NCBI GenBank assembly: GCA_009602725.1
Contig: WELB01000181.1
Span: 112,335-137,284 of the forward strand
DNA length: 24,950 nt
Direction: 5' to 3'
DNA from: Spirogloea muscicola
Taxonomy: Eukaryota > Streptophyta > Zygnematophyceae > Spirogloeales > Spirogloeaceae
How positions within the stretch are numbered: the stretch's first letter is position 1; each line of letters starts with the position of its first letter. The position numbers and the translations under genes were made by a program. This document shows, piece after piece, positions 1,351 through 24,685 of the stretch. The notes beneath the pieces were generated by a model that ran no database searches, was not told the origin of the DNA, and saw nothing but the letters and a program-made list of their open reading frames with translations.

Positions 1351-1972
1351 CTCACGGTTTATTAGAAGCCGTGGCAGCAGATTTTGGTCAGCAGGACTCA
1401 GAGGCTGTTGCCTCATCGTCCTGCTTTACAACCATAGGGCCTCGTGAGCACAGCTTGTGCCAAAGCCCATCCTTCAAGTCGCCTGCGCCAAACCACCGCA
1501 ATGTATGAGTTGCGAATTCCTGGTATCCTGGACCACTCAAAGGGCTGTTGTCAGCTCCACAACGACCAACAATTTGATGAGGACGATTTTGCTGAACTCC
1601 TGGCCTGCGAAGCTCAACTTCCTGACCAGGTGGCCTCACTACACACTTTGAGACTGCAGCCAACACCCGCAACCAGCCAGCCTGCAGTGAGATCCCGTAT
1701 TGACCATGTTCCTCGATGTTCCTCTCCCTGCTACTAGAGCCACATTGCCGACACAATGAGTCTCAAGCATCTAGACCCAGAGGCTTGAGGCCCACTCTTG
1801 ACTTGCATGTTTACATGTTTGGAAACATCACGATTTGTATTGGCTGCCACATCATAAGTGTTACTGAAATGCTTCCAAGTCTAGTGTCAAGTGCCTCAAT
1901 GACAGGATGTTGACATGGTATGCTCCTGCTCTTATCCTTGCATTAATGATTGAAATTTGACCTCCCTGGCAG

Positions 1973-3289: not shown

Positions 3290-3490
3290 TGACAATGACC
3301 TGCTCAGCTATCGCTGTTGAAATGCTGAGTGCTCCTTGTTGTGCTGGGTCACTGGTTGATTTAGATGTCATTGATGGACTGACATGTATGCTGCCTCGTG
3401 ACTTGACCATTCTTAAAGGATTCACTATCCCAGAAGTTCTTTCCCACAGCCGCAGTCATGGCCGCAATCGAAGAAAAGGTCAGTATCTAC
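3290..3490 (+). other. Conserved block after NAC-A, possible additional exon
   Basis: The frame containing TCSAIAVE is shared with ICSAIAVE in the relic at 6.54 kb, and the DNA of the two stretches aligns for about 180 bases. It ends at a plausible donor (AAAAG then GTCAGT at about 3479). It may be a fourth exon reached from the donor-like site within exon 3 of NAC-A, but I could not settle the phase to any later exon. A candidate last exon after a CACAG at about 3569 would read MCVPLPSFDTD and end in TAA at 3765; its phase does not match. Confidence 0.35.
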
Positions 3491-3769
3491 AACCACTTAG
3501 GAGGCAATTATGAAAAGGAGGACCCTGATCTCCTGGACGTTAAAATAATGTCTGGCAAACAACTCACAGGCCCATGTGTGTTCCTTTGCCTTCATTCGAT
3601 ACTGACAGCCCATCTCACAAAGTGCAGGATGTAGCCAGCTCGGTGGTTGTCGAGGAAGAAAGTGATCAACGTAAAAGGGAGAGAAGCTACTGTGGAAGCG
3701 GTACAGAAAGCGGACGCTGGCGGGGGATCCTTTCCTTTGGTTTCAGGGCTGCATCTTTCAAGTAAACAA

Positions 3770-4860
3770 GAAGAGCCAATAAGAGTCACACGATAATCGG
3801 GTAATGGAATCTCTTGTATGTATCCATTGCTTGTGCAACAGCTGAAGTCAGATTTTCAGGGTAAGCGACTGTAGCAACCAAACATTTGACACAGTCAATT
3901 GACTAACTTTTAAGTTGACAGGTAAACAATCACTGCAAGTAAGGAGGCGCCCATGCTCTATGCTCGTCAAAGATCTACGGAAACAGCATGCAAGGTGTAA
4001 CGAATGGCTTGCCCCTTTGAAGTCCACTGTAAGAAGGGCACGCAGGTAAAGCAAGCACGGCGCGGCGAAGCAGACGATTGGGGAAGGCATTGGGGTGGGC
4101 CTGCAATGACATGATGAAAAACTGCAGGGGCAAATCTCAAGGTGTCCGAGGGTGGTGAAGACCTCACTCCCTTTGCTAAGCCACCATCATTATTGTTGCT
4201 CGCCTGTACGGTGTACTGGCTCGGCTGGCCTCGGTCTCCAAGTTATGTGCATCGCTCGCCTTCTCTCTTCCCCTCTCATAAGCACCCCATATTACCAATG
4301 GGCATCTCAGCCCGACGCTCTTGTAAGAGAACTCGCACTCATCCGTAAACGACTTGTCGACGGCAATCAATGGTCTGCTAACGACAATCTGACCCATCAA
4401 TTCTTTCAGACCTGATGAAGGAGATACACTTTTTCCTGCCTTTTAGCCGTTGATCCATTCCTACCGTCCCATTTAGGGGGGCGCTTGTCACCTACGGAGG
4501 CGGCTTGCCCAGGCCACCTGGGTTGCCAGATAGTCCACTTGTTTGTAATTTGAGTCAGCAGTGCACGTGCATATTCCAATGGTGACATACAGCTGCTTCA
4601 CTGTCTATCTTTCCTTGGGCTTCGCCATCGCCCAAGCCCCAATTGAGTGGTCGCGATAATTCTCTCCTGAGCTCCCACTCAATTCTGAAAGAGCAGTGCT
4701 CAAGAGCCAAATTGAAAATCACAGTTAGCTGTCTGATCTTCACGTCAGCGTCAACGACCACTAATGGCACCGTCAAGGGTAGTGGCCTCCCCTTCAACGC
4801 AAGCACCACACCTTCTCGCGGCACGTCTCCAGGTTGCGCCGTTCTCAGCTGAAGGAGGTA
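3770..4860. other. No gene recognised
   Basis: No frame on either strand has family motifs, a paralogue in the window, or convincing splice sites. The only structure I noted is a short hairpin, TTGGGC...GCCCAA, at about 4616-4636. Confidence 0.4.
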
Positions 4861-4954
4861 AATAAATCCTCCCAGTCGTCAGCCTGGTGAGTTGCCTTCC
4901 TCCGCTCAGCCATCGGCCCCCTTCGGGGAAGAATGTGGCTCTCCCGAAGGCGGC

Positions 4955-5062
4955 AAGGGCTGTAAACAGCCAGCCCAAAAAGAAATTGACAAAGTCCGAA
5001 GGGGCCAGATCTCTCAGAGCTTGGCCGGTAGGATGGATCACTTGGTAACCACGAGTGAGGAG
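4955..5062 (-). mobile_element. Old, diverged LINE tail O1
   Basis: Read on the minus strand, it begins CTCACTCGTGGTTACC (compare CTCACTCGAGGGTACTGA at the end of the LINE protein). It continues through GGCCCCTTCGGACTTTGTC and TTTTTGGGCTGGCTG, with a weakened hairpin ending ACAGCCC. The same order is found in the tails near 10.9, 11.6 and 18.2 kb. Confidence 0.6.
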
Positions 5063-5467
5063 CTACAAATCAGAGAGTCTAGCAGCTGGAAAGCAACCCC
5101 CCTGCCGAAAGCCAGAGGCTGCAGCTAAAGCATGGCCAGCACGCAGTTGCAAGCCGTGGGCCATGGACCGCTGGATTGAGATGGAGAGGCCCTTACAACA
5201 AGACCTGAGTTAGCAAGCCAGCGGCGTTGAAGTCGGCCGGCTCACCTCGCCTGCTGATCGTGCCTGAGCCTGAGGAGAGTGGATTGAATGTGCGCTACTC
5301 GGAGTAACCAGGAAGGGGCCAGTCCGGCCGGTGGCTCTGTACGTAAGAGTATGCTTTTCCTCGACGAGAGAGAGGCGCGCAGTGCACATGAAATGAAAGG
5401 GTGGCCAATGCAAGCCAATGCATTGCTCAGGAAAAATCTAGTGCACAAACAATGCTCTTTCCAAAAG

Positions 5468-5600
5468 GGGCGAGGGTTGTGAATGGCCAGCCCGAAGTGC
5501 ATGAAGCAGGTGATGTACATCTGTCAATGTGCTTGCCATTTTACTTGGCCACACAGGGCCCTCCATCACTTAATACACACTTCTTTCCATGTGATTAATA
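5468..5600 (+). repeat. Inverted copy of the block at about 16.60-16.69 kb
   Basis: GATGTACATCTGTC through CTTGGCCACACAGG matches the reverse complement of about 16630-16680, and more weakly that of about 11800-11860. Reading frames of the copies share CLPxYLATQ. The first 35 bases (GGGCGAGGGTTGTGAATGGCCAGCCC) look like part of a minus-strand LINE tail. Whether the shared peptide is a real exon is unclear. Confidence 0.5.
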
Positions 5601-5633
5601 AGAGCACCACGTGTGCGCTGCTGATTAACAAAT

Positions 5634-5917
5634 CTGGCGACGCTTCGAGCCCCGCTGGCTGCGGCGGCCATTTCCGTGTCAAGAGTACCTTCCTTAAATG
5701 GTGCAGATACAGGCAGTGCCTCTCTCGGCCCTTAAGGCGGTCGATGGTGTTGGGTCGACGGCTCAGATGCGCCTTGACTTTTCAGCGGGCGAGCCCCGTT
5801 GCGCCTGAACTCCTTGCCAAATGAGACGAAGGACGCAGGTCCATTCTTTCCTGGCCTGGCTTTGCTAGCCCCTCTTTTTCACGATACACGAATGTCTACT
5901 TTTTCTATGGGCGAGCC
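5634..5917 (+). mobile_element. Composite repeat: V element plus LINE-type tail (L2')
   Basis: The first part (GTCGATGG through CGCCTTGACTT and AGCCCCGTTGC) matches segments at about 8330-8425 and 12630-12745. From 5839 it passes into a LINE tail (GTCCATTCTTTC, a weakened CTGGCTTTGCTAG hairpin, ATGGGCGAGC at 5907-5916). There is no protein-coding remnant between the two parts. It may be a non-autonomous element that borrows the LINE tail, or a deleted LINE. Confidence 0.5.
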
Positions 5918-5924
5918 ATTTCTC

Positions 5925-6098
5925 TTTCAAGAGCCAAGTATCCCTGACCTGAGGCTGCTTAGCAGGGGGTACTAAGTGCATCGTAGCTGCTTAGTTTCTT
6001 TTTGTGCTTGTCTTTCTTAGTTTTTACCCTGGCCCCTGCTCGTACTTTGTCATTCTTTTTCTGGGCTGGCTTTTCCAGCCCCTATCCTCAATGGGCGA
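5925..6098 (+). mobile_element. LINE copy L2: last 17 codons plus 3' tail
   Basis: Codons from 5925 read FQEPSIPDLRLLSRGY and stop at TAA (5973-5975), matching the C-terminus of L6, which ends in TGA. The tail has the hairpin GGGCTGG-CTTTT-CCAGCCC (6063-6081) and ends with ATGGGCGA at 6091-6098. Its 5' truncation lies within a few bases of the end of the L2' tail, and L3 faces it on the other strand. Extreme 5' truncation is typical of target-primed reverse transcription. Confidence 0.75.
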
Positions 6099-6146
6099 TC
6101 CCTTCTCTTCCAGGAGGATCAACAAAGGACGAGAAGGGGGCCAGGG

Positions 6147-6534
6147 GAAGAAAGTGCTCGCCCATTGAGAATAGGGGCTGGAACAACCAGCCCGAAAAAG
6201 AATGAACAGAGTACGAGAAGGGGGCCAGGGGAAGAGCTAAGAAACAGAAAGAAGCAGACAAAGAAACAGAGCAGCTACGAATCACTCAGTAACCCCTGCT
6301 AAGCAGCCTCAGCTTAGAGGCCCTAGGCTCCTGGAAGTGGGTGCCCTGGCTAGAGCCAGAGGCAGCAGCGAGGGCTCTGCCGGCCCGCAGGTGCAGCGCG
6401 CGGGCCATCGACCGCTGCAGCGAGACGGCCAAGCGCATCCGGTACACCTGCGCTAGCGACCCGGCTGCAGGAAAGTCCACCGGCTCCTCATGGAAGCGAC
6501 GGGCGATGGCGTGTCGGGCGAGCTGGGTGAGCAG
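6147..6534 (-). mobile_element. LINE copy L3: C-terminal coding part plus 3' tail
   Basis: On the minus strand the open frame reads from the 5' truncation at about 6534 to the TGA at 6286-6288. It includes LAQVYRMRLAVSLQ and ends in LRLLSRGY, nearly identical to L6. The tail carries the hairpin GGGCTGG-TTGTT-CCAGCCC (6175-6193) and ends near GAAGAAAGTGC. Beyond the 3' end, 6119-6146 repeats an inner piece of the same 3' UTR (CTTCCCCTGGCCCCCTTCTC on the minus strand). The 5' truncation abuts the NAC relic. Confidence 0.8.
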
Positions 6535-6540
6535 GAGGGG

Positions 6541-7090
6541 TGATGGTTATGATCTGCTCAGCCATAGCTGTTGAAGAGTGAGCAAATGGCTAAGACTTGA
6601 GGTGCTGGGTAATTGTTTGACAGAGATGTCAAGTCAACTGAGGTGTATGATGTGTCAGTACTTGACCCACTCTCGCGTTGTGCCCCAGGGGTCATTATTG
6701 CAGGAATTCAACACCACAGCCGCAGTCCTTGACGCTTTTGCTGATATAGTCGGCACTGATCATTCAGGAAGGCAAACACGAAGTGGAGAATCTAGGTTCA
6801 GATAGAGCTGAACACTGGCCCTTTCACCTGCAGATGAGTATAGTACTGTCCAAGGGCTTAAGCATCAGCACTTGGCAGTGGAGCTACACTCAACACTCAC
6901 TCAATGGAGGCTGATGCCTCCAATCCTTACCAAAATTTGCAGCTGCTGTAATCTAGCTGCTATAAAATCTAGCCACAACAGGAGGCCTTTGTCAAGTGGA
7001 AGTCGGTGCTCTTTATGTCAGCAGCTTACTCTTGACATAGCACCATATCGTCCTAGATTGTGGCATCCTTGGAAGATATGTCCATGATGG
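6541..7090 (+). pseudogene. NAC-C relic: downstream fragment of a third NAC unit
   Basis: 6541-6725 aligns with 3283-3470 downstream of NAC-A (CTGCTCAGC, CTGTTGAA, GCTGGGT, CACAGCCGCAGTC). Its frame ICSAIAVE stops a codon or so later. 6866-7090 aligns with 16300-16500 downstream of NAC-B (GAGGCTGATGCCT, CCACAACAGGAGGC, GTGGCATCC). The NAC domain itself is absent on the left, where LINE copy L3 abuts. I take this as the remains of a third tandem unit that lost its 5' part. Confidence 0.55.
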
Positions 7091-7099
7091 TCATTTCAT

Positions 7100-8030
7100 A
7101 GTGTCACCATCCATCTGCATTCACGTTAAACATACACTCCCTGGCAAGGATCACAGTCTAGAGCCATGTCTATATTCACACTATACACATTTGACCAAGT
7201 CTTGCCCGGGAGCGTCTCGTCATTTATGCCTGCAGAAGTGCCTGTCTTTCGTAATTTCGTACATCCACTTGTCCTGTGGCCTTGTAACTTCGAGCATTTG
7301 CCTAGTCACATTGCAGATGGTGTGTAGGTGCAGGCGATTCAGCCCACGAAGCCTTATGCTGAACCAGCGAACTGGTATATCTTGACGATCTGCCGAAATA
7401 GACCTGGTCAACCTATGATGACAGGATTAAAAGCAGGACATCACGGACAGCCGATCAAGGTCAGTGGAGAGTAAGCCGCAAGCATACAACATGAAAGTCA
7501 ACAAGCGGAGAACTAGGCTATCGGCAGATGTTGTACTACTTGAGGTTACCTTGTCCTGCCATGGACCTCTTGCAGGCAGTGGTGGAGACACTGCTGGGTA
7601 CAGGTCGCGCATCCAAGCATGGGCCGGTGGGGGTGCCCATATCGAATACCAAACCTCAATGCTTGTCACTGACTCGAGACAAGCCGGTTGAACATTGAGT
7701 CGAGACAGCAAAAGCAGAAGGATGGGCTTTCAGGGGGAGTCGAGCAGTCACTGTAGACTGAGGTGATGGTGGTGCGCATCCCGTGGTTGTAGGCGTGGGT
7801 GGCATTGGCGCGGCGTCCAGCCTTGGCCCGGCAATTCCTCTGTGTCCGAGTAGCTCGGCTTGGGCGTTGTCAAGGAGCGGGAGAAGAATACGAAGCTTCG
7901 TCAAGATGGGGTGATGGCCAATCAAGGCCAGCCATAAAGGCAGAGAGGTCTCGCCGCCGGCCATTCAGCTGGGATGGTCAGGCCTAGCTTGACCAGCTCA
8001 GGCCACTCAAACTTGAACAAGTGAAAGTCG
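7100..8030. other. No gene recognised
   Basis: Several frames of 60-100 codons are open on both strands, but none shows a family motif, a duplicate in the window, or a convincing chain of splice sites. I found no tRNA- or tail-like sequence here. Confidence 0.4.
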
Positions 8031-8140
8031 ATGCACCTTGTCAGTGGGACTTTCCTTAGCCTACGACGCCACATCTACGGCGTTACAAGCTTGCCTCTGC
8101 AACAGAATTTCTCCCCGTTGAATATGTCTAGGATGTTCGG

Positions 8141-8190
8141 CTGCTGGTGCTGGTGCTGGTGCTGGTGCTGGTGCTGGTGCTGGTGCTGGG
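8141..8190 (+). repeat. (GCTGGT)n hexanucleotide microsatellite
   Basis: About eight nearly perfect GCTGGT units. Open frames run through it on both strands (Leu-Val on one frame, Thr-Ser and Gln-His on the minus strand), but this follows from the repeat and is not evidence of a gene. Confidence 0.9.
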
Positions 8191-8299
8191 TTTGTTGGAT
8201 ACACGGATGGATGGTGGTGGAACCATCTGCCTGGACGATTGTTTTTTCAGTTGCATCCCGGTCTCGAGCTCCGTCGATACTGGCACATGGAGCCACATG

Positions 8300-8500
8300 A
8301 AAGGTTCAGCGCGCAGCTCTGCTGACTTAAAAGGCCGTCGATGCTGTCGCGTCGAGGGCTTGGGTGCTCTTCTTGCGCTGTAATCCCTGGGCCACACGGC
8401 GGTAGAGCGGGCCCCGTTCTCCGTGTCCTCATTCTTGGGTACTGAACTTTCTCTTCGACTGTACTTTTACTCTGCTTTGTTTACCCGTTTAGCCAACGGC
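8300..8500 (+). mobile_element. V element followed by a diverged LINE end
   Basis: About 8330-8425 (GGCCGTCGATG, CGCGTCGAGGG, GCGGGCCCCGTT) matches the V segments at 5.63 and 12.63 kb. Just after it, CTCATTCTTGGGTACTGAAC resembles CTCACTCGCGGGTACTGAGC at the end of the LINE protein, so the order is V, then LINE end. The tail beyond about 8500 is not recognisable. Confidence 0.45.
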
Positions 8501-8654
8501 TTTGCTTTGCGCTTTGCACGATAGTAGACTGAACAGTGCATCGTTCCGGCTTTGCCTCCCGTTCATTTCATGCCAAGGCGCGCCTTTCCGCGGAATTGTC
8601 AACAGTGCGGCGGAATAGGAAGTGGGGCCCACCAGCTGGAGCTGAGACTTTGAA

Positions 8655-9035
8655 AATCACAGCTCCCGAGTCACTAGCCGCGGGTCAGACCAGCAATGAA
8701 GCACACATCGATGGAGCACCCACTTAGCCGAGGGTGAACCATCTCGCGAGGGCTCGCCAGCACCTCTTTACACGTAGCCACCTTGTGAGCAGCGGCCAGC
8801 AGCTTCGAATTGTCAGCTCGTGGAGCCCGCATATTCAGCAATGTGGAGGCGCGGACTGGCCCTTGACTCTCTCCAGAATTAAGGATTCTCTCCACGTGCT
8901 TCGATAGTCATCGGCAGCCCATGCTCTCTGTCCACGACTTACGCCTGCTTGATTGTAACGGAGGCTCACAGAGCTTCCCCGACTGGCCATCCTCGTCTGG
9001 GGCTAGTCCTCGTCGACCTCCCCTTTAACGTCCCC
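8655..9035. repeat. Upstream module U2, partial and diverged copy
   Basis: Shares with the modules at 0.7 and 13.5 kb, in order: CCCGAGTCACTAG, GGGTCAGACCAGC, TAGCCGAG...GAACCA, CGTAGCCACCTTG and GTCAGCTCGTGG. Later come GGAGGCTCACAGAGCTTCC and CTGGCCATCCTCGTC. It is less similar than the 0.7/13.5 kb pair. No NAC exon follows it; LINE copy L4 does. Confidence 0.5.
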
Positions 9036-9161
9036 TCGTTTGAACGAGCCGGTAAACGGCTTCACGCGCCAGTCACGCGCGCCTCGCGCCAGTCCCCTTG
9101 GACTTGTATCCCATTCGTCAGGCTCGCGCCACGCGCAGCCCGCAGTACGCGCGGTACGCCC

Positions 9162-9217
9162 CCTGTATCCTTATTGTGCGGGTCCGCTCTTCCAGGGGCC
9201 AGACCCTGGGGCTTCTC
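9162..9217 (+). repeat. Left direct repeat flanking LINE copy L4
   Basis: 9173-9213 matches 10241-10281 at 37 of 41 positions by my count, and all four differences are transitions. It lies just before the part of L4 that resembles LINE protein, and its partner lies just after the L4 tail. A long target-site duplication is the simplest reading. Confidence 0.6.
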
Positions 9218-10210
9218 CCTCCGTCCGACCTTCGCGCGCATGCCCGGCTCCTTTCAGCCTCGTCCCCTGGGGCGGCGGCGTGGCTAAATGCGCTCTCACT
9301 CTACGCAGCACTTACTATGCCAGATGAGGTCTACAGGACGGCGGTCCATCGGCTCTTGGGCCTCCTCCCTCCCTGCCTCGTGGGCGTCACTCAGTGCGAG
9401 TGCGGCGCCCGTCACGCCGACCTAGCGGAGCTGGCTGCGCACATGCTCCATTGCGCGCACGGGGGCGAGCGGACCTGCTCGTATGATGTCCTGCGCGATG
9501 GTATGCAAAGGGTGTTTATGGAGGCGGGCTTCAAGGTGGCGGTGGGGAATGCCTCAGTGATGCCAATCCAGCTCGGCGCGGACGGCCAGCCCCATAAGCG
9601 CCGCGCCGACCTGGTCGCCAGCCCGCCCGGCGGCGGTTCCCGCACCATCGCCGACGTGGTGACAACCGACTGCTTCGACTCCGCCAATCCCACCAGGTTG
9701 GCGTCGTTTGCAGGGCATGCGGTCGGCCTGGCGGCCCGCGGTAAAGAGCGAAAATAGGCCGACCACCCGGCTGGTGACTTTGCGGCCCTGGCGATCGACG
9801 TTCACGGGCCTTTCGGCTGCCGCTGGCCGGATCTCCTCCAGCGGCTTGTCCGTCAGGCCATTGACCGGCGGCCGGGTCTACCAGGGGCGCTGCCCGGCTT
9901 CAACGCCGCCGGTTCGTCAGCCCAGGTCTTCCGCATGCGCCTGGCGGTATCGCTCCAAACGATCTCTGGCCCACGCCGTCCACACGCGAGCAGGAAGTGC
10001 TCTGGCCGCCGCCTCTGGTTTTCGGCGGAGTGCCTCCTTCCCTGCAACGAGCTACTCCTACCTGATGTTGCTCACTCGAGGGTACTGAGCTTCCCTAGTG
10101 CGTTGTCATGTTCGGTAGTGTGATACTATTTCGGCACCTCTTTCTTTGGCTTTGGACATTGTCCATTCTTTTTGGGCTGGCTTTGCCAGCTCTCTTCTCT
10201 ATGGGCGCGC
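9218..10210 (+). mobile_element. LINE copy L4: endonuclease region of a REL-type non-LTR retrotransposon, broken
   Basis: The open frame up to 9757 contains RLLSASSPGAAAWLNAL, HRLLGLLPPC, a CCHC knuckle (CEC-G-x11-H-x3-C) and then RAD-x14-D (RRADLV...IADVV). This is the arrangement of the C-terminal restriction-like endonuclease of R2/NeSL-type LINEs. The frame ends at TAG (9755-9757), where L6 has a Tyr codon in K-Y-A-D-H-P. Past it the homology continues (ADHP, LAIDVHG, FRMRLAVSLQ). Near 9958-9970 one extra base relative to L6 shifts the frame to the one ending LMLLTRGY, with TGA at 10086-10088. The tail follows, with the hairpin at 10174-10190. No reverse transcriptase domain is visible upstream, so the copy is 5'-truncated. 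It is inactive as read. A chimeric host use of the endonuclease fold is unlikely given the two lesions. Confidence 0.8.
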
Positions 10211-10225
10211 ACTTCCTTGGGGGCT

Positions 10226-10285
10226 ACCTGTCGTATCCCCATTGTGCGGGTCCGCTCCTCCGGGGGCCGGACCTTGGGGCTACCC
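10226..10285 (+). repeat. Right direct repeat flanking LINE copy L4
   Basis: Partner of the repeat at 9.17 kb. This copy keeps CpG sites where the left copy has CA, as expected if the left copy decayed by deamination. It contains complementary arms GGTCCG and CGGACC. A TATA-like box lies about 40 bases downstream. Confidence 0.6.
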
Positions 10286-10319
10286 TCGTCACATCCTCCG
10301 GGGAGGAGCGGCAGGTGGA

Positions 10320-10490
10320 ACGCTATAAGTAGTAGGCCGAGGCCAGACTCCTCAGTCGGACCAGTGACGCCCAGAGAGAGGCAAAGCCCTGCTTGCCTGC
10401 TGCCGCAGCCGCCGCCCCACTTCTGCTGCTGCCGTCTGCTGCCCAGCCCGTCGCCGCAGCTCCTCGCTGCGGACACCGTCGGCTCTCCGT
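10320..10490 (+). promoter_or_regulatory. Possible Pol II promoter and first exon
   Basis: TATAAGTAG at 10323-10331 is a good TATA box. About 155 bases on, CTCTCC is followed by GTAAGTGCC, a strong splice donor. The sequence between is Ala/Pro-rich if translated. I could not find a matching acceptor with a recognisable second exon, so the gene it might serve, or whether it is an LTR promoter, remains unknown. Confidence 0.3.
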
Positions 10491-10890
10491 AAGTGCCACG
10501 GTTGCGCCCAATCTGGGGTCAGCTACTAATCCCAGACCCTCTGAAGAGTCGCCGCCTTCTGGCGGTGCCTCAGGGTAGACTTCCGCTGTGCTATTTGATG
10601 CACTTGAGTGCACCGTGTGCGTTGGCGCTCCACTATGTGGGGGGTGGGAGTTCCTAAACCCCCTAGGTCCGAATTCAATAAGGACGTACTAACCCCTAAC
10701 TGCGTGTATAGGGATCAGGACGTCACGGTAGCCACCGAGCCCCATAGCCCCCATGGACGTCGACGGCAAGGGGCACAGAATCCTTACCCAGTGGATGATC
10801 AGCATACTAGCCTCCTTGCCTCGGGTTACACTGGCCATTGCGTGTCCTGCCTTTGAAGCTGCGAAGATCACGTCGGAGCGGTAAAAGGAA
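10490..10890. other. No gene recognised
   Basis: Follows the possible promoter. I saw no open frame with motifs or a duplicate elsewhere in the window. Confidence 0.35.
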
Positions 10891-10895
10891 GCAGC

Positions 10896-11005
10896 AGTGA
10901 CAGGCCAGCCCAGTAAGAATGGACAAAGTCCGAAGGGACCGGACAGCACACGCTTCAAAACTACGCAAGTGGCTATAACAGGTACAGCAACCCCTAGTCG
11001 ACAGC
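10896..11005 (-). mobile_element. Old, diverged LINE tail O2
   Basis: On the minus strand: CTAGGGGTTGCTG (compare AGCAGGGGTTACTGAG), then GGTCCCTTCGGACTTTGTCC, ATTCTTACTGGGCTGGCC. Same order as O1 and O3; the hairpin is no longer complementary. Confidence 0.55.
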
Positions 11006-11579
11006 CACAGCTTTGAGCCGCAGCCGCAGGTTGCGTCAAGATTTAGAAGGAGCAGCCGACCGTGGCCGGCCCGCAAATGCACGGCAAACGCCTGGGAGCA
11101 CAAGAAAGAAGACAAAGTGGGCGGGGGTTGGCCAGCAAGGGCAAGAAGCGGGCTCCTTCGAGAACTCGTTGAGCTCTCAGAGGGGCTCGATTTTCGCGAC
11201 TACAGTCACCGTCTCGTTTTGAAGAGATCCTCCATAGGAGTGCAATCGTGATGACCCTATGATTTTTCTCCGTGGAACTTCTACCTCGGCCCCTCCTCTT
11301 GGTATACACTACCCGACTCCTCTGTTTCTTCGCGAGCTGGTCACAGCCCTCGCCCCCTTCATTAGGCTGCTTCCTTGTCCAGAAGACTGCGGCTGCTGAT
11401 ATAACAAGGGGCTTTGAAAGCCAGCCGGGTGCACAAAGAAGGTGTTCGTATTCGAGTTAGCGGGGCAACAGGGTGTGATGGCTTGAGAGCCCTCTTAGGC
11501 TTGGTCTCGGGTGTGAGGCGGAGGAAGGGAGCCTAAGCCTGACAGAATGTGCGCTGCATGTATGTGGCTTTTGCTTTAG

Positions 11580-11695
11580 GGGGCGAGGGCTGTGAATAGC
11601 GAGCCCGAAAGGAATTGACAAGGTCCGAAGGGGCCAAAAGCGCTGTCTCAGAGCTTGGCCGGTAAGATGAATCACTTGGTAAATACGAGAGGAGC
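11580..11695 (-). mobile_element. Old, diverged LINE tail O3
   Basis: Nearly parallel to O1. On the minus strand it reads ACCAAGTGATTCATC, CCGGCCAAGCTCTGAGA, GGCCCCTTCGGACCTTGTC, then TTTCGGGCTCGC and ACAGCCCTCGCC. O1 and O3 share more sequence on the coding side (GGCCAAGCTCTGAGA) than either shares with the young copies, so they form a subfamily or a duplicated pair. Confidence 0.6.
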
Positions 11696-11784
11696 CGCAG
11701 AAGTAACTCAGAAAGAAATCAGAAAGCATAGGCAGCCGGAAAGCAATTCCCCTGACGAAAGCCAATGGCTGCAGCTAAATCGAA

Positions 11785-12110
11785 TATTTCGTATACTTGA
11801 AACAAACGAAGGCCAAATGGCCAAGTACCAAGGCAAGCACATCTGAAGACCTACATGACCTACAGCAGATTGACCCGCTCAGTAACCACGGGTCAAAACA
11901 TAAAGGTCGCTAATCGATGCCTGAATACCAGATGTCAGATACGAAGCCCTTCTGCCACCAACTAGAGCTCGCCCAGCTTTTTGGTGCAAGGCATTAGCCT
12001 GAGCACGCTGCAAACAGGCGAAACTCGTCGTCGCAAGAACGACAGATAAGCAGCTGGCAAGCCCATCTCAGCCGAAAACACATCTGCACGTCGTGTGAGC
12101 CTAGATTGGC
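11785..12110. repeat. Direct repeat of about 16.64-16.92 kb
   Basis: Common landmarks in order: GGCCAAGTA, AGGCAAGCA, GGGTCA, AGGTCGC, ATGCC, GCCCAGCTTT/TCCAGCTTT, GCTGGCAAGCCCATCT and CACGTCGTG/CATGTCGTG. It belongs to the downstream end of the NAC unit. No frame is convincingly conserved. Confidence 0.6.
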
Positions 12111-12197
12111 AGTGCTTTGAAGGAAGGTGTGGAAACGAGGACCCAGAGCAGTTGAAGGAGTAACCGCGGAAAGCGTGCCAACTGGGGAGCTTGTGGG

Positions 12198-12240
12198 TTT
12201 TCTGGGCTGGCTTTTCCCAGCCCCTATCCTCAATGGGCGA
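12198..12240 (+). mobile_element. Left part of a + strand LINE tail split by L5
   Basis: GGGCTGG-CTTTTC-CCAGCCC (12204-12223) followed by CTATCCTCAATGGGCGA. The tail seems to resume at 12426 as ATGGGCGAGCCCTTCTTC, like the end of L6 (ATGGGCGAGCACTTTCTTC). L5 sits between the two parts. Confidence 0.65.
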
Positions 12241-12425
12241 AGAAGAAAGTGCTCGCCCATTGAGGATAGGGGCTGGAAAAGCCAGCCCAAAAAAGAATGA
12301 ACGGAGTACGAGAAGGGGGACCAGGGGAAGCGCTGAGAAAAACAAGCACACAAAGAAACAAAGCAGCTACGAGTCACTCAGTAACCCCTGCTAAGCAGCC
12401 GCAGATCCGAGATGCTAGGCTCCTG
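12241..12425 (-). mobile_element. LINE copy L5: last 15-16 codons plus 3' tail, nested in another tail
   Basis: On the minus strand it codes QEPSISDLRLLSRGY and TGA (12378-12380). The 3' UTR follows, with the hairpin GGGCTGG-CTTTT-CCAGCCC (12270-12288) and the end GGGCGAGCACTTTCTTCT. ATGGGCGA is present on both sides (12233-12240 and 12426-12433), which fits an 8-bp target duplication. With the opposed tail it makes a long inverted repeat of about 36-bp arms. Confidence 0.75.
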
Positions 12426-12519
12426 ATGGGCGAGCCCTTCTTCGTCTTCTTCTTGTGGATTTCCGACCACTGTGAACGAGGACACAGACCACGTGGTGCG
12501 GCTTGTCGTGACACTTGGC

Positions 12520-12750
12520 ACCGCTCCGAGCCCGCTTGCAGCGGCCTCCTACCCCTGCTTCCAGCGCCGTTGATAATGGCAAGTGGAGTGACTTCATCGG
12601 TCTGGATGCAAGGCTGTGCATACACCGGCCTCTAGCCGTCGATGATATCGCCTCGACGGTGTAGGTGACGCCTTGACTTCCACGAGCTGATTCCGCTGGG
12701 CCCATTTGCAACGGGGAAGCCCCGTTGCCCGCAGACTCGCCGCCATAGAG
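12520..12750 (+). repeat. V element, third copy
   Basis: Matches 5634-5800 and 8330-8425 (CCGTCGATGATATCGCCTCG, ACGCCTTGACTTCC, AAGCCCCGTTGCCCGC). Here it runs directly into the coding remnant of LINE copy L6. Confidence 0.5.
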
Positions 12751-12761
12751 AGTGCCAGAGA

Positions 12762-13291
12762 CCGCCGATTGGGGAAGACGGCCGGCCGCTCGTAAAAAAC
12801 CCATCTGGGCGGTCCCACCGGGCCAAAGAGCTGAAGTACGCGGATCATCCGCGGGAAGACGAGTCCTTCCCGTTGGCCATCGACACACATGGGGCGCTGG
12901 GCGCTCGGTGGCTCGAGCTGCTCACCCAGCTCGCCCGCCACACCATCGCCCGGCGCTTCCATGGGGAGCCGGTTGACTTCCCTGCAGCCGGGTCGCTGGC
13001 GCAAGTGTATCGAATGCGCCTGGCCGTCTCGCTGCAGAGGTCCATGGCCCGGGCGCTGCACCTTCGTGCCGGCAGAGCCCTCGCTGCTGCCTCTGGCTCT
13101 GGCCAGGGGACCCACTTCCAGGAGCCCAGCATCTCTGATCTGCGGCTGCTTAGCAGGGGTTACTGAGTGTCTCGTAGCAGCTTTGTTTCTGTTACTTAGC
13201 GCTTCCCCTGGCCCCCTTCTCGTACTCTGTTCATTCTTTTTCGGGCTGGTTGTTCCAGCCCCTATTCTCAATGGGCGAGCACTTTCTTCTT
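12762..13291 (+). mobile_element. LINE copy L6: C-terminal coding part plus intact 3' tail
   Basis: The frame ending at TGA (13164-13166) contains AKELKYADHP, LAIDTHGALGARW, LAQVYRMRLAVSLQ and LRLLSRGY. Compared with L4 it keeps the K-Y after which the REL-type domain continues, but lacks the CCHC and RAD-x14-D part; a short IGEDGRP upstream recalls QLGADGQP of L4. The tail has the hairpin GGGCTGG-TTGTT-CCAGCCC (13243-13261) and ATGGGCGAGC (13271-13280). It is the best reference copy for the 3' end. Confidence 0.8.
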
Positions 13292-13499
13292 CACCACCAA
13301 GTGTGGGGTCACCCCATCAGGAGCACCGTCTCATTGTGGTGGTCTTGAGCGACTTCCCACCAAGTGCACCAGCTTCCATTTCCGATAGCCGGAACAATGT
13401 ATGGGCTCAAATCGGCCACCCTTTCATTGCATTCCCACCGTGCCCGCCTTCTCTCGAAGTGTGGTGCCACCATCGGCGTCACCGTCTGATGGTGTGACT

Positions 13500-14110
13500 C
13501 GATTGACACACCCCCCGAGTCGCAGCTCGTAGGTCAGACACAGCCTTGGAGCGCACCCCGAGCCGAGCGTGGAACACCTCCTGAGGTCTGCCAGCCCCTC
13601 CTCACGACGTCGCCACCTTGAGAGTTGGAGCTATGCTGCATCTAGTCGGCTCGTGTGCGCCCACAGCAGGCACTGACGCAGGGACCTTGTCTAATCCGAG
13701 GCCACTCTTTCCTGGTGTTGTTGGTCCTGTGGCAGTCCACGCTCTCTCCCCCCCCGCTCGGCCTGCTCCCGTGTGAGAGAGGCTCACTGGATAACCCCAA
13801 CTGGCCACTCTTGTTAGGGGATTGGACCTCACTGAATTCCCCTTTTACTTTGTGGCTCGGGGCTTCTGCTCGCTGCTGTCGCCGCCGGCTCGAACATCAA
13901 CACCAGCTTCACTTTCCGCAGCAGCCACGGCTTCCCCACAGTAAGCAGCCAAGCGCAGGCCCCGTGGCAGACCTCCCGGCACAGGCTGCTGGCTACGTGC
14001 CTTGCGGCCTCATCCAGATTCGCCGCTGACGGCGGCTGGCTGACTCCTTGCACCAGCCTTTGGATTGCTGTCCTTGGCCATGGCACCAGCAGCGACCGTT
14101 TGAAAGCGGT
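13500..14110. repeat. Upstream module U3, copy of the module at 0.7-1.35 kb
   Basis: Same landmarks and order as U1, preceded by sequence that also matches (from about 13297). It lies directly downstream of the L6 tail and upstream of NAC-B. Confidence 0.7.
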
Positions 14111-14169
14111 GGACCGCACTTCGAGAGTGTGAACCTTCTCTGGAGGTCCTGCCGGCGCAACCACACAAA

Positions 14170-14560
14170 GTCGCTACCTTGGGAGCTGCACAGCAGCAGC
14201 AGCCTCGCCTGGCCGGCTCGAGGGCGCTTGCGTTTTCGGCAATGCGCGAACGTGGACTGGCCAAGGACACCAAGAACATCTTCCTAGGTTCGAGGCCCTC
14301 TCTCCGTTTGTCGCTGGTCCTCGGCAGCCACGCCTTTCTCCAAGGCTCACACCTGCTTGCATGTGAGGGAGGCTCACTGGGCTTCCAGCGCTTGCCACCC
14401 TCGTCAAGGGTTGGTCGTTTGCCCTCCTTCGTCGGCTCCCGGTTGGGTGCCTGCTAGCCGCTGTCGCCGCTGGGCTTGGACAGAGGACCACTGTCACCTC
14501 CAGCAGCAGCCACACCCTCCCCACGGCCGGCCCAGCTTGCAGCTGCCCCGTTCAAGAGCA
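14170..14560. repeat. Upstream module U4, diverged tandem copy of U3
   Basis: Repeats parts of U3 about 560 bases later: CTACCTTGGGAGCT, TTCGAGGCC, GTGAGGGAGGCTCACTGG, CAGCAGCAGCCAC and TCCCCAC. So the upstream region of NAC-B is itself internally duplicated. Confidence 0.5.
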
Positions 14561-14883
14561 CGTGCACAGGCGGCTGGCTGAAGCTCCTTATGGCCTTGTC
14601 TTAGATAGCGGCTGAAGGCGGACAGCTGAGTCCTCCTTGCTCCAGCCTTATGCTTTGCCACAGCCCGCGCGGTGGCCACGTGAACGCTTGTCACGGTCAT
14701 CAAAAGCCGGAAGTAGCTGGCAATGATACTCCTCTCTCTTCTCTGGAAGCCACAAGTCGTCACAATGAATTTCAAGCACAAGGGTCTGCTAGTACGAAGC
14801 TTGATGCCCATGCCTGATCTTCATTGGTGCGATTTTACCATACAGATCTTGCTCATGCGAATCACCGTTGTCCTCCCTTGCAG

Positions 14884-16185
14884 ATGGCCAGGGCCTCGCA
14901 TACAGATGGCCCACACCCACTTCCAGAAGAGGGCTTCCGACACTAAATTCCAGGAGTGGGCTTCCGTCCAACCGATGTGCAGAATCTGCAATACTCAAAT
15001 CTTATATCTCTGGCTTCGAGGAGAAGGAGGCAAGGAAAAGGAGGCTGTTTGCAGCAAGGCTATTTTCGGTAGTAGATGACATGATGGTGCCACCTGAAAA
15101 GCTGGTGAAGAAGCTGCCATATGGTACATCCGCTCTGAAAATTTGGAACAAACGATTTTGATCCTGCTCCTGTCCTCTGCTGCTAACAAGATAGTGGCAT
15201 ACGTAGTTCTGAAGCACAGGTGGATGTGTGCATGCATTCTATTTTAAAGCAAAAGCTTGATGGCACATGCTGATTGACATGTGAGCAAAACGAGTACAAG
15301 TACTGGCTTGCATTTCCTGAACATGTCCAAAGAATTACAGTAGATAGCATAGAGACTCTTGTATTCTTGCTGGTACACACATCCACACTTATAAAAGATT
15401 CCTGAGCATGCCGCAGGCTTAGGTCAAGGCGAGAATTGCAATGAGCTCCACGACAGGAAGTGTTACTTGATTATTGAGAATCCAAAGCCATTTGGTCGTG
15501 GAATTGCGCGAATTGTGAAGAATGTGGGGTGTGATGAAAAAATAGGTAAATGGGACAGTTCAGGCGAACAGGAAATCTTCGATGACAGCATCAACAAGGT
15601 TGGAAAAAAACGGATCTTGTCGTACTATGTTATTGAAAAGGGAGCAAAAAAAGAATATAGCTACCGGGAAGAGACGGTCATGTGGTGAACAAGCCATTGG
15701 CAATTGCTACCGTGCACGAGTATCGCCTCTGCAGTAAAGAACAGGGACAGGTAAGCAGCAGCATAGTCCTTCGTTGCTGAACGGGTGTGCTCATTATTGT
15801 CATCGTTGCCTGACGTGTCTAACTCATCCAGAAGCACAACCTGCCAAGTATTGCTACACTTCTCCCCACATCATTGCTGCATGACTATTGGTCACGTAGA
15901 TGGATCGGAGCTACCTCAAGCTTAGAGAACCTAAGCAGCTCTTACAAAATGTGAACAAGTGTTATGCCCTTTGCACAAATTGTGCTTTTGCAGACTTTGA
16001 CTCTCATTTGGAAATTTTGGTTGGAGAAGGCCTCGCTTGAAGGACTTTCTCAAAGTTCGTCAGCCGGCTCAATGTCTTGCCCTCTTTGTTACCTTTTCAA
16101 GCGTGATTCGGAGACCAAATTCGGAGCCGATTGCGGATTTGCTGACAACATGTCTGCTGTTTATTGCGTACTGAACCAGTTGTAA
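14884..16185 (+). pseudogene. NAC-B: paralogue of NAC-A with broken frame
   Basis: The three exons correspond to those of NAC-A: to 15123, 15423-15750 and 15994-16185, with the same splice junctions (TATG/GTACAT, GGCTTAG/GTCAAGG, ACAG/GTAAGC, TTGCAG). Exon 1 keeps DDMMVPPEKLVKKLPYG. Exon 2 keeps NELHDRKCY, KWDSSG, VGKKRILSYY and TVHEYRL. Exon 3 keeps IWKFWL, the Ser run and SCPLC. Lesions: exon 1 has an insertion with an internal GGGCTTCCG duplication that takes the ATG at 14884 out of frame; exon 2 is one base shorter than in NAC-A, with an in-frame TGA at 15686-15688, and the HEYRL part is in another frame. A sequencing error could explain one lesion but hardly both. If expressed, it would lack the end of the NAC domain. 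Confidence 0.72.
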
Positions 16186-16239
16186 CTTGTAGCCCCTTGA
16201 TTCAGATGGAGCTAAGCAGGCAAACCTTTCCACCTTTCC

Positions 16240-16630
16240 ACCTGCACACCTGCACATGTTAGCAATGAGAAGGGTTGAGCATGACCCACATAGTATGCTC
16301 CCAATACTGGAGCTGCACGTTTGTGTTGAGGCTGATGCCTTCATTGACAGATAGCATACCTGAGCTGCTATGGACTTGAGCCACAACAGGAGGCGTTGCC
16401 AAGTCACAACATTGCCAGTGATCATACTGTATGCAGCTCAGGTGCAGCCTTATCTTCCCACCAATGTGGCATCCATGCAGATTGACATATCTTGGTGTTT
16501 GCACCCACAGTTTCCCGTTCCGAGTAACCTTTTGTAACTTCTTGTAGAGGCTTCCTTTCAGTTCAGGAGCCGAAGCGGCTGACTGGCCAGCCCTTGGGGG
16601 TAAAAGCGTATATTGAGCGTAGAGGGCCTC
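16240..16630 (-). other. Conserved block downstream of NAC-B, open on the minus strand
   Basis: A minus-strand frame of about 159 codons (to 16738) runs through a segment that has diverged copies at 6.87-7.09 and 17.10-17.29 kb. The residues around CCDLATPPVVAQVHSS are partly kept in frame in the copies (PPVVA, LIVAQV), but both other copies are interrupted. It may be an exon of a minus-strand gene or a chance frame over a duplicated non-coding segment. Confidence 0.3.
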
Positions 16631-16634
16631 CTGA

Positions 16635-16925
16635 GTGGCCAAGTATTGAGGCAAGCATATTTGCGGATGTACATTACCTGCTGCTAAGACGACCGGCCTA
16701 GTACTTGCTGACCCTGGGTCAGCAAGTAGAGGTCGCATATTGATGCCAGCATAAAAGACGGCATAAGGTCAAGCACTTATGCCGCCAATCAAAAGCTTGT
16801 CCAGCTTTCAGGTGCAAATCATGAGCCAGAGCTCACTGCAGGCTGACACACTGTGGTGCAAGAACACAGTATGCTGCTGGCAAGCCCATCTTGGCTGATC
16901 ATGTCGTGCATAATGTATATGTAGC
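16635..16925. repeat. Direct repeat of 11.79-12.11 kb
   Basis: See the partner repeat. This copy contains a perfect palindrome that the other lacks. Confidence 0.6.
16702..16728. repeat. Perfect 27-base palindrome
   Basis: Arms TACTTGCTGACCC and GGGTCAGCAAGTA around a single T. The corresponding place of the 11.88 kb copy reads AACCACGGGTCAAAAC, so the left arm is new or was lost there. Confidence 0.85.
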
Positions 16926-17238
16926 AATGTTCTACTGTAGAGGCTGGAGCTAGGAGCAGCTAAAGATGTCGACTGCAGCTGGTAGGAGGTTGTTGCAGCG
17001 GTGGTAGTCGAAGTAGTGCTTCATTTTTCCTGCTCTGCACTACCGACTGCACTACCAGCAACGTAGGTCATCTCTGGACACTCATCTACCTCCATAACAA
17101 CAGCATCTACCAGGCACGTGGTCCTCCACCACTGTGCCATGACTTGAGCCACTATCAGGTTGTGCCCAATGATCATGCAGACCTCAGTTTCCACATGACC
17201 TGGAAGACTTGCAGTTGAAAGAACCCAGACGCAACTGG

Positions 17239-17458
17239 CGTTGTGCTTCCCCTAGTAACTCACACAGAATTCTGCTCCAGAAAGGATACTTGTATGTTGG
17301 ACCACTGTCATACTGGCCATGGGCTAAGCATCAAAGAAAATTGTGCTTCCCGCAGCAACTCATGGCTGGGACTACCAATCTAATTTGAGAATTTGGCACC
17401 AAAAAGAATACTTGTAGGTCGGACCACTGTCATACTGGCCAAGGGCTAAGCATCAATG
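17239..17458 (+). repeat. Tandem repeat, two units of about 100-118 bases
   Basis: Both units start TTGTGCTTCCC and contain GGACCACTGTCATACTGGCC and GGGCTAAGCATCAA. The middle parts differ in length. No coding sense is apparent. Confidence 0.75.
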
Positions 17459-17469
17459 ATATAGTAAGC

Positions 17470-18190
17470 TGCCTATTAGTGCTGGTAGATGATAGTAATG
17501 TGGAGGCTGCTGCCTGCAGTCTCTTACAATTAGGCTACAGCTGCCGAAAGATCAGCCACATAGGAGGCTGTTATGAAGACGTGCAAGGAGAGACACAATC
17601 TCATAATGGACTAATAGCCATATGTAGTAGATATGAATATCTTCTTATGTGGCAGTCCTTGACAGAACACTTACGGCAGAGTTGTGTCCTGTTGGTGAAT
17701 TTCTTCTGTCTTCTTCAAGTTGTCTTATTCAAGGTTTGATGATTGTTCATTTTCATTTCCTTGCATGATCACACTGCCCAGCCAGATATGTTTCTACCTT
17801 GTGCTTGATTCCCTCTTAGTTGATGCATGAGTTGCCCATGCATCTTACCGCTGCTTTGCATGTTTCCTTTCCCCCAGATATAGCCCCATCCACGTCTTCT
17901 AGCTTCCTAGCATTTTGATTGTAGATTGTGTGGTAGGAGCTATACTTTCACCCTCCCTAAGTCAAGGATCAACGAACAATACAAAATCAAGTTTGATTAG
18001 CAACCCAACTTTGTTTGTCAGCAATGGTGATAGAAGTAGGAGCCCATGGTCAATGTCATAGCAGTCACAATTACTTCCGTCTTCCAAAGCACCGTGCTTC
18101 TCTTCATCTTTATAGCAGTGTCCTGTTAGAAAGACAGTATCATATGCACCTTTCACTGTGTCGACTAAGAAGAAAGACTCTTCCAATCAG
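17470..18190. other. No gene recognised
   Basis: An 86-codon open frame at 17479-17739 overlaps a diverged copy of the GAGGCTG...CCACAxxAGGAGGC block seen at 6.89 and 16.33 kb, but has no family motif. The rest is AT-richer spacer downstream of the ceramide kinase gene. Confidence 0.4.
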
Positions 18191-18202
18191 AGGGCGATGG
18201 AT

Positions 18203-18275
18203 ATACTTGGCCAGCCCAGAATAATTCAAAGACCAAATTCCGAAGGGGCCAGGAAAGCGCTAAAGCACAAAGCGA
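18203..18275 (-). mobile_element. Diverged LINE tail O4, in the probable 3' UTR of the ceramide kinase gene
   Basis: On the minus strand, starting some 40 bases after the stop codon: TTTAGCGCTTTCCTGGCCCC, TTCGGAATTTGG, ATTATTCTGGGCTGGCC. This matches AGCGCTTCCCCTGGCCCCC...ATTCTTTTTCGGGCTGG of L6. It is in the same orientation as the gene. Confidence 0.55.
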
Positions 18276-18307
18276 CTCACGTGGCCACTGGCTGCTCAAT
18301 AACCGTC

Positions 18308-21300
18308 TTAAGTTTCTGGCCCGCGAGCAAAGAGGCTGATCAGGCCGTGGAAGACCTGCACTGACAGCTCGTGTGCTGCAAAGAGCTCCCCATCCACGCT
18401 CCAAGTGCTCTCTCGCCCAGATGTTACGCACGTGAAGGCTGGGGTCTGGCAAAGATCCAACTACAGCAAACTTAAACGAGCAGCACTGTGATTCAGCTAG
18501 AGAGGAGCATTTGTCCTTGTATCCTAGGATGTAGAAGCAGACGAGCAAGTCAGGCCATACGTATCCACGGTGAACATCAGGAGCTAAGAGGAAATACCTT
18601 GTGGTGCTCTACAAATTTAAAGTCAAGCGGCCGCCCGCCCTTGTATGTAAGTTGCAGCAACTGCCTGTGCAACAACCAAACTCATCACATTAGGGGTCTG
18701 AGATGATAGATACCATAGGTTGTCCCGACAGTACAATGACTGTTTGTCAGCTGTCAATTGTCAGCTGACGAGCATAATGATGTACATATTACATACTATA
18801 AGTAGCATAATCAATGAATTGAGGCGCCATGCTCATCTATGCCCAATTGAAAATCCATGCGAAGAGCACGCAAAGGACCCTTGGAAAGCCAAGCGCAAAT
18901 GGGCAGTGGAAGTCACTGGCCAGTATGATTATTGAGTTGCGAAGTGCGAGGTGGAAACGAGTAAATGATGGCTGATTCAGCGGTCACCTCAGGTAGTCGG
19001 CGCGAGAGCACTCCCGGATGAGGATGAGGTGCAGAAGGCCATCAGCAAGGTGCGCACCCGCAGAGATGCCAGCGGGGGCCTTATCGTTGCGGCACGACAT
19101 CACCGCCGCGCCGATACTGCAAGGTCCACATCACCACCTCAACTAAATCAGCAACCCTGATCACTGGATTCAAGTTCATCTTCAAGCATGTTAAGTCCAC
19201 TGAGGTAGCAGATCAGAAACGTCCTACAGTGGCACACTTAGTTAAGATTCTATCTGAAACCGGTGCTTTAGATTGTCACTTTATTGTCAACGCTAGTGCG
19301 TCTGATCCAGCTCCAACTTGAGAAGCATTTGTGTTAACAAACTGGCTTCCTCACCCTACGGAGGCCTGAGGGAGAAAGACCTTTGGAAACGGCCCCTGAC
19401 AGTGCGCCAGTGGGTGCCCAGCAGAGGAGATGCGGAGCCGGTGGCCACATTGCCGCCGTTGCCCTCTTGGTCGCCACGTCGACTTCCGTCGACCAGGTCC
19501 AGGCCAGCCGCACACGTCTTGCAGTCAACGACACACAGTGGCGGTCCTGCTGGCGGTGGCGGCTGCGGTGCTCGCCAACGGGAGGAGCGTGACGGGCCCA
19601 CCCTCCTCGACCCCCACCTGCTGCTGCGGCCTGAGAGCTCGGGGCCCTCCTCTGTCGTCACTGCCGCAGGGTGTGGCTCCACAACGCCACCGTCGCCACT
19701 GCCGTCGCCAGCATCGCCGACCACGGCTTCTGATGCCATGTCCAAGGAGGACACCTCCGCTTGGTACGCTCTATTGACAAAAGTGGGAAGGGGGAGAGGA
19801 GGTGTAAGGTAGGAGGCAGGAGGGAGGAAGAAGCCAGGAGAGGCGCCAATGCAGGTCATAGTCTTACCGGTGGCGGGCGTAGGTGAAAAATCCGGCAACG
19901 TCATAGCGCGCTGGTCCGAGCCAGCGGTACGCCTCACTCTGCCGCATCACGTCCCCGTAGAAGCCGTAGCTGGAGACATCCGGTTTGTCAAAGAATTGGT
20001 TAGTGAGGTGAAAGAGCAGGAGAGGAGCAGCCCCCAGCAAAGGTATGTAGACATTACAAGTGGACGATTACGGGAGGTGGTGTATGAGGGGTATTGAAGT
20101 GCTAATGCTAATGCTAATGCTAACGCTTACCCGGCGAAGGAGGCAGCATAGCGCACTTGCGGCGGTGGCGGGACGGACGGCGGCGGGCCACAGCCGCGAG
20201 TCCACCCAGTGACGCGCGCGATGTCCAGCGGTAGGCAGTCGCCCAGCACGATGTGGAGAGCGGCTGCCACGAAGCTTCGGGAGCCATTCGTGCTGCGACT
20301 CGGCCAAAGAGGAGGAGGCAGAAATGGGTATGCAGAGAGGAGGCAGGAGGAGAGCAAGCCATGGTGATGACTCAGAAGCCTAGCATTAGCAATTGCTGCC
20401 TCACCTGATGACCACTGTGTCTGTCGACCCCGCCGGGATGATGCCAAAGCGCAGCCGCGAGAGCTCAGCCGGCGCCCAGCGGCGCGTCCCCGACGTCTGT
20501 TGCTCTGCTTCGGCAACGTCACGACCATCAGCAACTGCAGGCAGACAGATGGCACAATGCTGGAGTTGAGGAGATGGAGCTTCTCGTGTGCACTACCGTC
20601 CTCCATCTCTCCTTCCTACCCTCTCTCCTCTCTTATCACCTTCCCTCCGTCGCTACGTATATTTCATCATTCCTCGGCAATCTCCACCCTCTTGAGAGCC
20701 TCCTTCCGATCTCCAAAAGTTGCTCCCCTCTCTCTCTCTCTTGTTGACTCCATACTTCTCCTTACCTAGCAATCAAACCTTTCTACCTCACTGAAGGCTT
20801 TGCCAAAGTGCAGTCCCACTTGGCCTAAGTCTTCAGCCGGCTGCCTTACTAAAACAGCAATTGCGTCGGCACTGGCAATAGACAGGGGCCATGGATGCCT
20901 CACCTGGGCCTGTGGCGTCACCTGTCCTTCCTCGTCGCTGCGGCTCCTCTCTCCCCCCTAAGCTTAAATCTTCCCTCCTTATGTGGGCCTCGGCCCCCAT
21001 CTCCTCCACAGCAGCCGCATCACCAGCTTCTCGCTCATCATCGCCAGCACCTCGCTCGACGGCAGCCAGCGGCAGCGACGGCGCCGCAGCCGATGGGCGA
21101 CGGCTGAGCGGTGCAGCGTGGCGGCCACTCAGGAAGCCGTTCAGCACCTCGCTGAAGAACCCATCGCCGCCCTGGAGGAAGGGCGGAGGAGGCAGGGCAG
21201 AGGGTGACGGCAAGCTTGAAACGAGCACGTGAGAGGAGGGAGAACAGGAGGGAGGGAGAATAATTAGAGATATAAAACTAAAGAGGGGCAGAAAGAGGGC

Positions 21301-23974: not shown

Positions 23975-24010
23975 GGCCACCTGCCTTCTCCTCCTCCAAG
24001 ACTTTGAATC

Positions 24011-24680: not shown

Positions 24681-24685
24681 TGCTT

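Follow-up and report, generated by a model that had tools for sequence, protein, structure and literature searches.

The minus-strand copy L5 (positions 12241-12425) in a 24,950-nucleotide stretch of DNA from Spirogloea muscicola (contig WELB01000181.1; hereafter the window) is best explained as a non-LTR-type, LINE-like element copy that inserted in the ordinary way into an older one, a reading to which a probability of ~0.63 was assigned. The locus possesses an exact duplication, a family tail on the left, a truncated copy, and a 3′ end that is common to other copies. In the favored course of events, the element RNA, recognized via its structured 3′ UTR, would have been reverse transcribed at a nick after the motif ATGGGCGA in an older plus-strand tail. 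Synthesis would have ended after ~185 bases to leave the 5′-truncated copy L5, and cleavage of the second strand ~8 bp away would have duplicated ATGGGCGA. The nick and the enzyme are proposed steps. Recognition of a structured 3′ UTR is a property of many LINE reverse transcriptases.

The L5 locus and its host tail

L5, which also is denoted T6 among the tails, is a 5′-truncated copy of ~185 bp with its 3′ end at the left, as delimited by self-BLAST and the tail profile. In self-BLAST comparisons it matched a minus-strand copy at 6147-6333 (87.8%) and plus-strand copies at 13119-13295 (86.3%) and 5927-6110 (84.5%). L5 scored E 6e-23 against the tail profile, of which it is itself one of the six members. 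The first-pass annotation had described L5 as bracketed by an 8-bp sequence, and direct reading bore this out: exact direct repeats of ATGGGCGA on the plus strand adjoin the two ends of L5 at 12233-12240 and 12426-12433. The left copy also was registered in the motif count, and the right copy, which is the probable target duplication, in the flank-word test. The two copies are preceded by A and G, respectively, and are followed by A and G, respectively, so that the repeat is exactly 8 bp. The target duplication nevertheless is given as 6-8 bp because the joint reads GAAGAAGAAAG, which permits the 3′ end of L5 to slide by ~2 bases. Among seven copies or complexes whose flanks were compared, L5 was the only one with a shared word of at least 8 bases. 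Words of this length were shared by 0.85% of 2000 random flank pairs, a frequency that is not family-aware as ATGGGCGA is family sequence. The other six copies or complexes had shared flank words of 4-5 bases at most, and this limit of ≤5 bp compared with 8 bp at L5 counts against the nested-insertion reading.

The host of L5 is T5, a 5′-truncated plus-strand tail whose left part (12198-12240; nhmmer E 3e-10) ends in ATGGGCGA and is 97.7% identical in self-BLAST to 6057-6098. The exact duplication together with this tail on the left supports the initial suggestion that L5 is nested in the tail of another copy. The tail also had been thought to resume on the right of L5. Here, the second ATGGGCGA runs on as GCCCTTCTTCG, and the probable resumed end of T5 (GCCCTTCTTC...) occupies 12434-12445 on the plus strand. 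Among seven real tail ends, the first 11 bases after the right ATGGGCGA best matched T2 (8 of 11 positions), with 4-7 positions alike in the other six; 452 of 49,880 window positions (0.9%) match tail ends as well as this stretch does. The resumed part (12425-12441) is weak by itself with a profile E of 1.7, and is placed exactly at the joint. Thus, the left-hand portion of the suggestion stands, and the plus tail T5 probably picks up again to the right of L5, as judged from the 8/11 match and the position. The brevity of the resumed tail, its E of 1.7, and the agreement of six of the seven tail ends at no more than 7 of 11 positions weigh against the nested insertion.

T5 faces the tail of L5 in a near-perfect palindrome at 12198-12294 (inverted self-match 85.7%; DNA fold z −12.7). 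Foldback, which had been named earlier as an alternative for L5, would make T5 and L5 a single product: the 3′ end of a strand would have turned back at the 12-nt loop that separates the tails and served as the primer for copying itself, which would give the palindrome. The 43-bp arms around this loop, with one mismatch and one gap, are in keeping with such an event, as is a second tail-to-tail palindrome at 6057-6198 in which the copies T3 and T4 oppose each other with a short minus-strand fragment in between. The flank-word test found no target duplication at this second palindrome. The repeated layout also argues against nested insertion, as a pair of random insertions, each independent of the other, would not easily generate it. 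However, T5 resembles T3 (no mismatches and one gap over 43 positions) no less than it resembles L5 (one mismatch and one gap), a weak point that turns on one base. More strongly, the right-hand ATGGGCGA and the tail-like sequence that follows it are not expected from foldback. Foldback is disfavored on these two grounds and is considered unlikely. Separately, 12 Rfam matches to microRNA precursors were obtained on 4900-13600 with an E-value threshold, all at the two palindromes and below gathering scores. The matches were rejected because a long hairpin yields such matches.

Two further features were observed around L5. The copies T3 (5924) and L5 (12425) almost share a 5′ boundary (CAAGAG or CAGGAG), and CAGGAG occurs again at 6111-6116 past the tail of T3. 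This boundary may mark a short non-autonomous unit of defined extent, or the point at which the reverse transcriptase stops. In addition, a dispersed repeat detected by self-BLAST at 11818-12068 and 16636-16891 (71% alike) ends 130 bp to the left of the L5 nest.

The family 3′ end and its coding pieces

The family copies in the window share a common 3′ end and vary in their 5′ reach, as revealed by self-BLAST and the tail profile; this combination of a shared 3′ end with varied 5′ truncation is a criterion for LINEs. The profile was built from six copies and detected eleven tails at E <1e-4 in the window, with its own six members included. The 3′ flanks vary among copies, as expected without a fixed target. 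On the plus strand, the tail T1 (1-212; E 3.4e-16, a profile member) is succeeded by T14 (213-246; E 0.12), a second and weakly scoring tail piece. The plus-strand tail T8 (5831-5922; nhmmer E 8.5e-7) has T3 directly after it: T3 (5924-6110, plus strand) starts where the T8 tail stops, according to self-BLAST, the tail profile, and flank reading. Between T3 and T4 is a minus-strand fragment that corresponds to the upstream portion of the tail (6115-6147; 89% over 37 bp to 6199-6235; profile E 0.12), and T4 itself (6148-6534, minus strand; self-BLAST and tail profile) directs its tail at that of T3. The longest copy (9056-10219, plus strand) comprises a coding piece, 3′ UTR, and tail T2, and its 5′ limit is merely the start of the reading frame. 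T7 (12815-13295, plus strand; 5′ limit uncertain) is another longer copy that includes a C-terminal coding piece, stop codon, 3′ UTR, and tail.

The window also contains repeats of other kinds. A related module of ~170-210 bp (core GTCGATG..TCGA.GG) was noted at 12521-12730, 5635-5812, and 8255-8425, in each case on the plus strand. The module is positioned upstream of different entry points into the family 3′ part, the third case by eye only. It could be SINE-like or a 5′ piece joined to the tail; E-values for the module are circular as its profile was built from the same three stretches. In self-BLAST, 704-3181 and 13483-16107 form six collinear blocks (72-80% alike) at a spacing of 12.8-13.0 kb, which suggests an old segmental duplication carrying the repeats. 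Short interstitial TTTAGGG-like repeats are located at 22396-22432 and 24012-24048.

The motif ATGGGCGA is present nine times in the window compared with 0.57 expected in shuffles, and for one of the nine, at 21093, there is no tail hairpin in front. The motif is not the family terminus, as the tail extends past it by GC(A/C)CTTTCTTC or a variant thereof. The T4, T6, and T7 tails continue beyond ATGGGCGA as GCACTTTCTTC; T2, T3, T8, and the resumed T5 bear variants of this continuation, and T1 is less clear. The consensus fold of six tails is a two-tier 3′ stem. In the predicted outer stem, GUUCAUU or GUCCAU in the arm before the hairpin pairs with AAUGGGC, and in the inner hairpin GGGCUGG pairs with CCAGCCC (GGGCTGG...CCAGCCC in DNA). 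The outer helix appeared in the minimum-energy single-sequence folds of T1, T2, T4, and T7, was partial in T3, and was absent from T6. Three tails folded clearly better than shuffles, of which 0/200 (T7), 1/200 (T1), and 3/200 (T2) folded as well. The corresponding values for T6 (11/200), T3 (24/200), and T4 (32/200) were not clearly better. Covariation does not prove the stem because none of the 14 pairs in the six-tail consensus fold had changed on both sides. Both this absence of paired changes and the failure of more than three of six tails clearly to beat shuffles count against the nested-insertion reading.

On the basis of these patterns, ATGGGCGA recurs at tails as a part of the 3′ end of the element itself, in which it forms an arm of the predicted RNA stem. 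As the motif is part of a conserved 3′ end, its presence at tails requires no target preference, and the nine copies in the window are therefore not nine target sites.

There are 13 stop-to-stop frames of at least 150 amino acids in the 25-kb window, a low number that, together with the TTTAGGG-like repeats, gives the DNA a eukaryotic look. Reading by eye of the longest copy revealed a Cys/His pattern as well as RRADLV...IADVVTTD; a stop at 9755-9757 breaks this coding piece. Judged by eye, the arrangement is reminiscent of the zinc finger plus restriction-like endonuclease found in R2-type elements. The last part of the longest copy resembles T7 (47% over the aligned row). The first part has a second version at 24659-24949 with 59% identity at the protein level. 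As this diverged Cys/His coding piece is situated at the right edge of the window, more of the element may lie beyond. Pfam searches of 6 of the 13 long frames were empty even at an E-value limit of 1. Neither a reverse transcriptase nor an endonuclease was detected in the six stop-masked frames of 4900-13601 or in the plus frames of 1-4901 and 13600-16602; within 16603-24950 the scan covered two long frames. The lack of a reverse transcriptase in the frames scanned is a further point against the nested insertion; the scanned copies are short or truncated, and the domain may be missing from them. A PDB profile search returned one weak match to a RING/CHY zinc finger (E 0.6), and AlphaFold gave no usable fold for the C-terminal region (mean pLDDT 38.7). 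Weak Pfam matches to SelP_N (E 0.79) and DUF3974 (E 0.044, below its cut-off) were set aside. A NAC-like plant protein at 2000-2800 was withdrawn as Pfam gave no support.

Joints between copies

Joints in which one copy begins just after the tail of another, or in which copies face each other, had been described by the first-pass annotation under the labels L2, L2′, and L3, which were left undefined. Joints of this kind do exist, at 5914 to 5924, 6110 to 6147, and 10219 to 10233. For seven of eight tails, a further family piece lies no more than 15 bp from the 3′ end, and 20,000 random placements of the same pieces gave at most four, once. When the joints were collapsed to five loci, 4/5 adjoined a family piece compared with 14.3% coverage (P 0.0018), and the value became 3/5 loci (P 0.023) when two weak pieces were dropped. 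Four of the seven joints, those at T1, T8, T4, and T2, are in the same orientation; the other three, at T3 and on both sides of T5/L5, are opposed.

This clustering is what would be anticipated if the family prefers its own tail, such that an endonuclease recognizes the tail or is led there and copies pile up in 3′ ends. The situation of L5 in the motif itself, and the three opposed joints that template jumping leaves unexplained, also point in this direction. The numbers are soft, however, as the pieces were delimited by hand and the window was singled out for these repeats, and the four same-orientation joints fit template jumping equally well. Moreover, an enzyme that cuts at ATGGGCGA would put the sequence of the site after each tail. 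The 3′ junction lies in the motif for just one of the eight tails, that of L5, and the other seven 3′ flanks differ; hence, the preference is unsupported, and a fixed target sequence at the 3′ junction, which is frequent but not universal among RLE-type elements (PMC4640811), was not observed. Overall, a general preference for the tail is improbable. The proposal that the tail motif is a preferred target fails in that ATGGGCGA is inside the conserved 3′ end, and the broader notion that the family nests in its own 3′ ends survives in part: pieces do cluster at tails, but the four joints in the same orientation may be due to template jumping. The first-pass annotation had considered such self-targeting to suit a REL-type endonuclease, an enzyme type that is a candidate only. 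A more elaborate version, in which the cleavage preference of an RLE element would extend to the stem of its 3′ UTR at the DNA level (GGGC..GCCC around ATGGGCGAGCCC), is very improbable. The RNA priming structure would then double as a landing site, and a self-nesting array would spare host genes.

For the joints that run head to tail (T8 to T3, T4 to the 6115 fragment, and T1 to T14), another possible origin is that the reverse transcriptase, within a single insertion, jumped from the 5′ part of one RNA to the 3′ end of the next, without target choice and with L5 as a separate event. Jumps of this kind are seen in vitro for the R2 reverse transcriptase, although the authors indicate that this activity perhaps is not physiologically necessary (PMC8857657). 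By extension from that report, jumping would yield head-to-tail joints without target duplication. Here, the flank-word test of the T3 and T4 joints found no target duplication at either, and both are on CTTC or similar, which also is the end of the tail. The overlap at CTTC, however, was read by eye, and the joints are read from sequence alone whereas the jumping described for R2 was seen in vitro with the enzyme (PMC8857657). Jumping also leaves unexplained why L5, with its 8-bp repeat, lies in the opposite orientation and why T3 faces T4. As an explanation for the head-to-tail joints, template jumping is tentatively entertained as a real possibility that falls short of being probable.

Comparison with known elements and implications

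In the green algae Coccomyxa and Chlamydomonas, Zepp and Zepp-like elements, respectively, are reported to build nested arrays of LINE 3′ ends (PMC3446292, PMC8226300), and the arrays are said in these reports to arise by insertion that targets existing copies (PMC8226300, PMC3446292). Zepp copies are mostly 5′-truncated and lie in nested clusters (PMC8226300, PMC3446292); in the family studied here, L5 is probably nested and seven of eight tails adjoin a family piece. The L5 nest differs in that one joint is opposite in orientation and has an 8-bp duplication. Zepp has been assigned to the L1 elements (PMC8226300); neither an L1 reverse transcriptase nor an AP endonuclease of the Zepp type was found in the frames scanned, in which the copies are truncated. 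By analogy, the L5 nest would be of the same kind as the nested Zepp arrays on a small scale, a likeness in 3′-end nesting alone.

RLE elements (R2, NeSL, Utopia) are reported to be mostly target-specific, with some Utopia families weakly so, and 20 of 94 3′ junctions of Utopia in Nasonia vitripennis adjoin another Utopia (PMC4640811). The window copies are like Utopia in that 3′ ends at times are followed by another copy (PMC4640811), but their 3′ flanks vary whereas most RLE elements are described as target-specific (PMC4640811). In plants, nested LTR retrotransposons, which are a different class, are reported to target specific regions of other elements and palindromes (PMC6911290). Literature searches found nothing on nested RLE elements in a green alga or on self-insertion of a non-LTR retrotransposon. 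Database comparisons likewise provided no relative. A viral collection produced no match to two tail patterns, and a protein search of that collection gave five stretches with a pattern but no relative; stretch L001, the one hit to a third pattern, lacked a preceding hairpin and matched the profile over 24 bases (E 0.0016 within that locus alone), and was attributed to chance. Prokaryote genomes gave 96 stretches with a peptide pattern, no relative, and no tail-pattern match. There was no match in plasmids, and none in Rfam at the gathering score.

If self-targeting were true, the 3′ end of a retrotransposon would be its own safe landing site, which would bear on the origin of target specificity and on LINE arrays at centromeres or telomeres. 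On present evidence, the L5 locus is a tidy example of nested insertion. It also carries a caution: a short motif that is repeated at junctions may be sequence of the element, and not the signature of a target.
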